The position numbers were made by a program, and so were the translations under genes. From an uncultured Opitutia bacterium (lineage in GTDB: Bacteria; Verrucomicrobiota; Verrucomicrobiia; Opitutales; UBA953): 64,000 nucleotides of DNA. Below the pieces are notes generated by a model. That model searched no databases. It was not told the origin of the DNA and saw only the letters and a program-made list of their open reading frames with translations. Positions 45,171 through 48,100 of the stretch are shown in pieces. The stretch lies in the NCBI GenBank assembly GCA_945957395.1, contig CAMFKE010000005.1, positions 188,001 through 252,000 of the forward strand. The letters run 5' to 3'. Numbering within the stretch: position 1 is the first letter of the stretch; each line of letters opens with the position of its first letter.

Positions 45171-48100
45171 ATGCCGAATCTCGCCGCCCTTTTCGCTTTC
45201 ATGGCCCTCGCCCCGCTCGCCCTCGCCGCCGCCTACCCTCAGTCCGACCGCCCGGCCGCGCCCACCGGCCTCGAGTGGGAGCAGCCCGAAAACCTCGCGC
45301 TGAACAAGGAGGCCCCGCGCGCCACCTTCCACTCGTTCGCCGACACCGCGAGCGCGCTGAAGCTGCTGCCGGAGCATTCGGCGTATTGGCGCACGCTCGA
45401 CGGCGACTGGAAGTTCCATTGGGCGAAACATCCCGACGAGCGACCGCGCGATTTCCATAAGGCCGAATTCGATGCGTCCGGATGGAAAAGCATCCGCGTG
45501 CCGTCGAACTGGCAGTGCGAAGGGTACGATGTGCCCGTGTACTCGAACCAGGCCTACCTTTTCCAACGCGACCAGCCTCGCGTGATGAGCGAGCCCCCGG
45601 CGCATTTCACCACCTTCGTTAACCGCAACCCGGTCGGCTCCTACCGGCGCGACTTCGCGGTGCCCGCAGAGTGGGCCGGCCGCGCCACCTTCCTGCGCTT
45701 CGACGGCGTCGACGCGTTCTTCTACCTGTGGATCAACGGCCGCTATGTCGGCTTCTCCAAGGACAGCCGCGTGCCCGCCGAGTTCGACATCTCCCGATTC
45801 CTCAAACCAGGCCGCAACACCGTGGCCGTCGAGGTCTACCGTTTCTGCGACGGCTCGTATCTGGAATGTCAGGACATGTGGCGACTCTCCGGCATCTTCC
45901 GCTCCGTCTCACTGCACTCGCGCGACCCGCTGCATGCGCGCGACCTGTTCGTGAAGACATCGCCCGCCTCCGCCGACAACTGGGAGCTCTCCGCCGAGAT
46001 TGACCTGAAAAGGCTCGCCGGAGCCCCGGCCGGCCCGGCGTCCGTCGCGGTGAAGCTTTTCGACGCCGCCGGCGCCGAGGTGCGCCCGGTCGGCGGCGCC
46101 TTCTCCTTCCACTCCGGCGAGACCCCGCACGGGGGCGTCCGCGTCTCCGGCGTCTTTGAAAAGCCCGCGCTGTGGTCGGCCGAGACGCCCCACTTGTACA
46201 CGCTTGTCGCGACCGTTTCGGACGCCACCGGTCGCACGCGCGACATCGTTTCCACCGCCGTCGGCTTCCGCACGGCCGAGGTGCGCGACGGGAAATTCCT
46301 CATCAACGGCAAGCCGGTGAAGCTCAAGGGCGTGAACCGCCACGAGAGCTCGCCCGCCACCGGCCACGCGATCACGCGCGCCGACATGGAGCTGGATGTG
46401 CTGCGGCTCAAGCAGGCCAACATCAACCATGTGCGCCTCTCGCACTACCCGAACGACCCGTATTGGTATTATCTGTGCGACAAGCACGGGCTGTACCTCA
46501 TGGACGAGGCCAACATCGAGTCGCACGGCTACTACTACGGCAAGGACTCCCTCTCCCACCCGCCCGAGTGGCGCGCCGCGCATGTCGACCGCGTGATGGC
46601 CATGGTGGAGCGCGACAAGAACCACCCGTCGGTCGTGCTCTGGTCCCTCGGCAACGAGGCCGGCCCGGGCGACAACTTCCGCGCCGCCGCCGACGCGCTG
46701 AAGGCGCGCGACACCACGCGCCCCACGCACTACGAGCGCAACAACACGCTCGTGGACATCGACTCGAACCAGTACCCGAGCGTGGGCTGGACCCGACGCA
46801 AGGCCGAGCAACGCGACAACGCGAAGCCGTTCTATGTCTCCGAGATCGCCCACATCATGAACAACGGCATGGGCAACCTCGCCGACTACTGGGCCGAAAT
46901 CGAGAAATCCGACAACCTGCTTGGCTGCGCCATCTGGGAATGGTGCGACCAGGGCCTGTATAAGAAAACCGGCGACGGGCGCACCTTCGTCGCCTACGGC
47001 GGCGACTTCGGCGACGCGCCCAACGACGGCCAGTTCATCGTGAAGGGCGTGGTGTTCGCCGACCGAACGCCCAAGCCGTGCTTCGCCGAGGTGAAGCGCG
47101 TCTACCAAGACATCGCTGTTTCCGCCACGCCCGGGCAGCTCGCGCGCGGCGAGTTCGAGGTGTTCAACAAGTTCCACTTCAAAGACCTCTCCGGCTACAC
47201 GCTCGCCTGGGAAATCACCGAGGACGGCACCCGCGTCGCCGGCGGCGACATGCCCTGCCCGCCCGTCGCGCCCCGCGCGAAACAGACCGTGCGACTAGCC
47301 ACAGACGGCAGTGAGCAGGGAGGAAGGCAGCAGGAGGGTGCGATGACCGAATACGCGGGCGGAACGCCTTCCTCCGTCGGTCAACACGCCCCCACTGCCT
47401 GCTCCCTTCTGCCTGATTCCTCCCGCAATCCCGGCGCCGACTACCGGCTCAACCTTTCCTTCCGCACCGCCTCAGCCGATGCGGTGCTCGGGCCCGCAGG
47501 ACATGAGGTGGCCTCCGAGCAATTCGCACTCCGCGCGCCCGCCTCCGACAAGCCGATGCTCGCGGTGAACGGAGACCGGCCGGCCCTCGCCGAGGACGAT
47601 GCGCACGCCGTGGTCACGGGGAAAAACTTCCGCGCGGTGTTCGACAAAGCCACGGTCGGGCTGGCCGCGCTCGAATACGCGGGCATGCCGGTGTTCAAGC
47701 CCGGCCACGGGCCGTCGCTCAACCTCTTCCGAGCCCCGGTGAACAACGACCACCGCGTCATGCAGCCTTGGTTCGCACTCGGGCTGCGCCACCTCGCCGC
47801 CCGCCCCGTATCGTTCTCCGCCGACACCTCCGCTCCTGGACTGGTGCGGCTGCGCGCGGTCACCGATCACTTCGGCACGCGAGCCGAACGCGTGGACGGC
47901 TACGGCACCAACCGCCCCGCCATCTCGCCCGACGGCGACCTGCCCGCCGACGCGCCGGTGTTCCGCGTGGTCTCGGCCTGGACGGTGCACGCCGACGGAT
48001 CGGTCGTCCAACAATCCACGGTCACGGCGCGGGGGCGCGATCTGGTGCTGCCCAAGGTCGGATTCTCCATGCACCTGCCCGCCGCGTATGCGTTCGCCGA

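Follow-up and report, generated by a model that had tools for sequence, protein, structure and literature searches.

The beta-galactosidase gene (lacZ) of an uncultured Opitutia bacterium carries, in frame, a hairpin-forming segment that its homologues do not have. We consider it probable that this segment represents a single copy of a repeat that is dispersed, non-autonomous and hairpin-forming, with arms built of degenerate 7-nt words, and whose coding copies have been inserted in frame at tolerant loops. The segment was first noticed in the window, that is, the whole 64,000-nt stretch of DNA analysed here, and was subsequently compared with homologous proteins, with the remainder of the genome and with related genomes.

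The host gene and the site of the hairpin

The gene and the parts of the hairpin are as follows, in positions of the window.
45129..49193, + strand: GH2 beta-galactosidase (LacZ) gene, with Pfam matches to Glyco_hydro_2_N, Glyco_hydro_2, Glyco_hydro_2_C, LacZ_4, Bgal_small_N and F5_F8_type_C
47306..47425, + strand: word hairpin in lacZ (hairpin scan, fold, shuffles, absence from 108 homologues)
47307..47337, + strand: 5' arm of the hairpin, purine-rich, GCAGTGAGCAGGGAGGAAGGCAGCAGGAGGG (direct reading; pairs with the 3' arm in the fold)
47338..47392, + strand: core of the hairpin, containing CGAATACGCGG, common to C4:309132-309266 (gapped alignment)
47393..47423, + strand: 3' arm of the hairpin, pyrimidine-rich, CACTGCCTGCTCCCTTCTGCC... 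(direct reading; similarity to C4:309132 reached in 0/200 shuffles)

The product of the lacZ ORF has 1354 residues; the TTG at 45129 is the first in-frame start, and the true start may be further in. As the original prediction had stated, the hairpin segment preserves the reading frame of this ORF. It amounts to a net gain of about 108 nt (36 codons), at roughly 47301-47408 with edges placed to within several codons. The two arms had been predicted to pair imperfectly, and both their position and their pairing were borne out by the fold and by shuffles. The RNA fold of 47297-47433 reaches -60.2 kcal/mol (z -3.16; 0/200 shuffles as good) and the DNA fold has a z of -2.15, while the 120-nt element has a gapped self-complementarity score of 60, which 1/1000 dinucleotide shuffles attain; the shuffle mean is 24.6.

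The segment had also been thought to add about 40 residues to a linker. The addition stands, at about 36 residues relative to the homologues, but the linker does not. The LacZ_4 Pfam match is stretched, spanning 126 residues for an 87-position profile, and in the AlphaFold model of domain 4 the insert is a low-confidence coil (pLDDT ~48-60) between confident beta strands (~95). On these two grounds the insert is placed inside domain 4, where the modelled site is a loop between two strands and not an inter-domain linker.

Evidence that the segment is an insertion

LacZ was aligned with 108 homologues from several phyla, drawn from genomes of the same family, other genomes of the order, Akkermansia, Bacteroides, Planctomycetota and others. 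The segment is absent from 108/108 of them and the flanks run on continuously, one of the nearest homologues reading 'VEVP-FQSPAFKPGAEYFLRLGF' straight across the insert site; these proteins are only ~50-57% identical. No homologue from any genus has the segment, and the notion of an ancestral linker, which such an alignment had been suggested to probe, was not borne out.

The composition of the insert also sets it apart. GC content at codon positions 1/2/3 is 0.68/0.65/0.68 in the insert vs 0.68/0.50/0.89 in the rest of the gene, and a third-position GC as low as that of the insert occurs in 0/1281 same-length windows of the rest of lacZ. The third-position signature of the gene is missing from the insert, whose codon-position composition fits non-coding DNA turned coding. 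The same composition lends indirect support to a recent date for the insertion.

Relatives of the lacZ element in the same genome

A BLAST search of the lacZ element against its own genome returned short partial matches only, and the relationship to C4:309132 emerged from gapped alignment with shuffles. Among 112 intergenic hairpins, the one at C4:309132-309266 aligns with the lacZ element end to end, with a score of 53, where 300 shuffles give 42 at most, and has both arms and the core CGAATACGCGG in common with it. Taken separately, the 3' arm is significantly similar (0/200 shuffles), the 5' arm marginally so (4/200) and the core not significantly (118/200). An intergenic element near C5:157877 also has GGCAGCAGGGAG-type words in common with the lacZ element. 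On the strength of this alignment and these common words, the lacZ segment is, judged by sequence similarity, a member of a dispersed repeat.

With a word score of 9, the lacZ arms fall short of the regularity of clear heptad arrays; they are too degenerate for a strict 7-nt period and are absent from the list of such arrays. Membership of a structured subfamily with an AAGTGG core, described below, was considered and dropped, since the covariance model of that subfamily (R1) gave no match to the lacZ element and the lacZ core is no closer to other elements than shuffles are.

The hairpin class across the genome

The genome (G000) was read in stretches covering 2.03 of its 2.79 Mb, with genes predicted by a hexamer model. 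These 2.03 Mb hold dozens of intergenic hairpins with arms of degenerate 7-nt words, including AAGGCAG/AATGCAG, AAGTGAG, TTTCAGG, TTTTCGG/TTTTCAG, GGATTGC, GGAACTC, CACGAAA, CAAAGGCAC and others. Arm words differ among element families, and ends are alike within one word family. Among imperfect short repeats, only lags of 7 and 14 are enriched: clusters at lag 7 number 8 inside genes and 18 elsewhere, as against 0-2 at lags 5, 8, 10, 11, 13 and 16. Each word family keeps to one arm, eight word families together giving 24 forward-then-reverse pairs vs 0 reverse-then-forward. A 6-mer word scan, interpreted at high scores alone as low scores give many chance matches, yielded 27 matches with a score of at least 28 vs 6 after codon shuffling; the lacZ element scores only 9. 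Several intergenic copies occupy nearly the entire gap between two genes, and intergenic copies are found between tandem as well as convergent genes. Sequence similarity between elements is modest, with no near-identical pair of the kind that very recent transposition would give.

Three further elements were located in the window, with no strand assigned.
8108..8234: intergenic word hairpin with AAGGCAG/AATGCA words and an AAGTGG..CCACTT-type structured core, subfamily R1 (covariance model R1, 78.9 bits; one of its 8 training sequences)
9897..10000: intergenic word hairpin with TTTCAGG words, filling most of a 134-nt gap between two genes (hairpin scan)
28676..28805: word hairpin with AAGTAAGAAG words at the 5' end of a predicted ORF (hairpin scan)

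The first two support the earlier proposal that elements of the same kind fill intergenic gaps of the window, but only as regards the class: the other elements in the window belong to word families different from that of the lacZ element, whose relatives lie elsewhere in the genome.

In the structured-core subfamily R1, AAGTGG..CCACTT closes inner hairpins with a TTTTCGAAA-like apex. The covariance model, built from 8 copies, finds 25 matches in the genome, corresponding to about fifteen places when both strands of one place are counted once. It found no matches in 114 relatives, and among the 115 genomes searched the subfamily is limited to this one. Further intergenic hairpin clusters, with CTTGGCG, ACCGCAGAG and TCTCCGTG words, were observed at C2:44209-46863 and C4:296521-313623.

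Other coding insertions

The original prediction had recommended a genome search for the same architecture inside other genes. Such copies were recovered in frame in mfd and uvrA, both core DNA-repair genes, and in a DUF3142 gene; in alignments with 15-29 relatives, the relatives lack them. In mfd (C6:108724-112449, +), word hairpins lie at residues 98-129 and at residues 306-336 with 347-363, and residues 458-486 form a one-armed heptad array, likewise in frame; all are absent from 29 relatives. The uvrA gene (C6:175262-181099), which encodes a double-length UvrA of 1945 residues, has a word-hairpin insert at residues 568-611, and the DUF3142 gene (C4:78336-79670, -) has a hairpin of GGAACTC/GGAACGC words at residues 198-227. 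In addition, reading of this genome alone places a GAGGTGCGAGGTGC-type word hairpin near residues 838-868 of an hrpA-like helicase gene (C1:366407-371236, -) and a heptad array in the C-terminal part of dnaX. In hsdM, a short heptad array falls where the nearest solved structure has a gap. One-armed heptad arrays are found in hsdM, dnaX and a neighbouring pair of ABC exporter genes (C4:329823-329849, C5:14825-14856, C2:322835 and C2:324927).

Three candidates were excluded as coding insertions: an array in pgi, homologues of which begin near residue 120, and arrays in a histidine kinase gene (C5:87569) and in the ORF at C3:212510, where the array precedes the likely true start.

Distribution of the words in other genomes

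Three tandem copies of GGATTGC, with at most 2 mismatches, were found 34 times in the genome under study. None occurs in the other members of its own family searched, and 16 genomes from other families of the order have them; the backward-read control was zero throughout. Heptad hairpins of the GGATTGC type are present in five genomes of other families (G156, G164, G175, G188 and G245), and several of the other-family genomes with GGATTGC words display the same hairpin polarity as the genome studied here. Three tandem copies of TTTTCAG occur 21 times in this genome and in 9 others; of these 9, 3 have GGATTGC as well and one (G198) also gives control matches. From the distribution of GGATTGC and TTTTCAG, heptad words are, at the level of sequence matches, patchily common to different genera.

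Origin and spread of the elements

We infer that the elements move and that, as originally proposed, a mobile or copying process entered a coding sequence; the latter is supported by the insertion relative to homologues and by the inserts of the same class in other genes. In the reading that we favour, the hairpins are mostly intergenic and some copies would, in this lineage, have been inserted in frame at loops tolerating extra residues. Whole elements would move as units, perhaps through some enzyme that copies them while they are folded as DNA hairpins. Selection would filter the reading frame and site of the coding copies, which would persist only at sites compatible with the frame and the protein fold, and LacZ with its insert presumably still works. 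A more far-reaching proposal, which we put forward tentatively and with considerable doubt, is that an undescribed copying system in the order writes hairpins with interchangeable 7-nt-word arms and fixed polarity into the spaces between genes as well as, in frame, into core genes, and does so without RAYT or reverse transcriptase. Under this proposal, the words common to unrelated genera would imply either horizontal movement of the elements or a conserved word-generating machine.

It is unlikely, though it deserves to be weighed seriously, that the elements grew in situ, replication slippage multiplying the heptads and template switching at a small quasi-palindrome producing the other arm, so that no unit moves. 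Such growth would suit words that are degenerate and differ between elements, the strict 7-nt period and the one-armed arrays in mfd, hsdM and dnaX. It sits poorly with the full-length relative of the lacZ element elsewhere in the genome, with a structured core repeated in a dozen or so copies of one subfamily, and with the finding of the same word in unrelated genera. Moreover, palindromes forming at random would arise in either orientation, whereas the observed polarity is 24:0.

It is very improbable that selection maintains the lacZ hairpin as functional RNA, whether as an attenuator, a terminator or a regulator site. The strong RNA fold is compatible with such a role, but an Rfam search of the window and of four element-bearing or neighbouring loci returned no family above the gathering score, only tRNAs; intergenic copies lie between tandem and convergent genes alike, and a terminator within lacZ would be harmful. 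Slightly more remote still is the reading that a RAYT (Y1 tyrosine transposase) moves them as REPIN-like elements, or that a reverse transcriptase moves the elements. Despite the small size, palindromic form, mostly intergenic location and many copies of the elements, neither Y1_Tnp (PF01797, RAYT) nor the reverse transcriptase domain RVT_1 was matched in the genome, which is 96% complete, while the controls were positive (in 5 genomes for Y1_Tnp); nor is there a single conserved REP sequence. Finally, loss of an ancestral LacZ loop by all homologues is a negligible prospect, with no supporting point found and both the absence of the segment across several phyla and its composition, unlike the remainder of lacZ, speaking against it.

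Comparison with known systems

Rickettsia palindromic elements (RPE; PMC10969869) are likewise palindromes of ~100-150 bp that lie in frame in unrelated genes and add a protein segment. The same situation was found here in lacZ, mfd, uvrA and the DUF3142 gene, by comparison with relatives. RPE families have consensus sequences, whereas the present elements have interchangeable heptad-word arms; also unlike RPE, they lie mostly between genes, in a GC-rich host of the Verrucomicrobiota type. The precedent cited in the original prediction for in-frame coding repeats is apt as an analogy for the lacZ insertion.

The STRRs of cyanobacteria are heptamer direct repeats. Direct repeats of the heptamer TAACTGA are known from Beggiatoaceae, Cyanobacteria and Bacteroidetes, with coding copies reported mainly at protein ends (MacGregor 2015, PMC4679880). 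Both types resemble the elements described here in having tandem 7-nt words, being mostly intergenic and patchy across distant lineages, and lying in some cases within ORFs. They are direct repeats, however. In the present genome a hairpin is closed by a pair of complementary word arms, many different word families occur side by side, and the coding copies lie in the interior of core genes. The 7-nt tandem period holds for the class (lags 7 and 14), the lacZ arms themselves being too degenerate, and TAACTGA was not found as a word of any listed element, the words being GGATTGC, AAGGCAG, TTTCAGG and others.

REP/REPIN sequences with RAYT (PMC3116915, PMC3733652) are likewise small, palindromic, dispersed and mostly intergenic; unlike them, the present elements have heptad-word arms and no single conserved REP sequence, and no Y1 transposase was matched in the genome. 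Conserved terminal inverted repeats in all copies, as in MITEs, were not found, arm words differing between element families. Elhai and colleagues, as cited in PMC4390886, reportedly described very small mobile repeated elements of cyanobacteria in 2008; likened by description only, these too are small, dispersed and without coding capacity of their own. By analogy, the elements appear to combine the coding insertion of RPE with the word build of heptamer repeats. A limited literature search found no description of this hairpin class in the phylum.

Significance

Rickettsia provides the best-documented case of proteins gaining in-frame segments from palindromic repeats. Here, such gain is seen in a genome where neither RAYT nor reverse transcriptase was found, and where mfd was struck several times and uvrA, lacZ and apparently hrpA were also affected. 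How small dispersed repeats spread is a long-standing open question, and any mechanism proposed must account for the fixed polarity of the arms and for the heptad period. As natural insertions in conserved proteins, present here and absent in relatives, the coding copies make the tolerance of disordered inserts directly testable. The lacZ hairpin looks like a spreading repeat able to become part of proteins.
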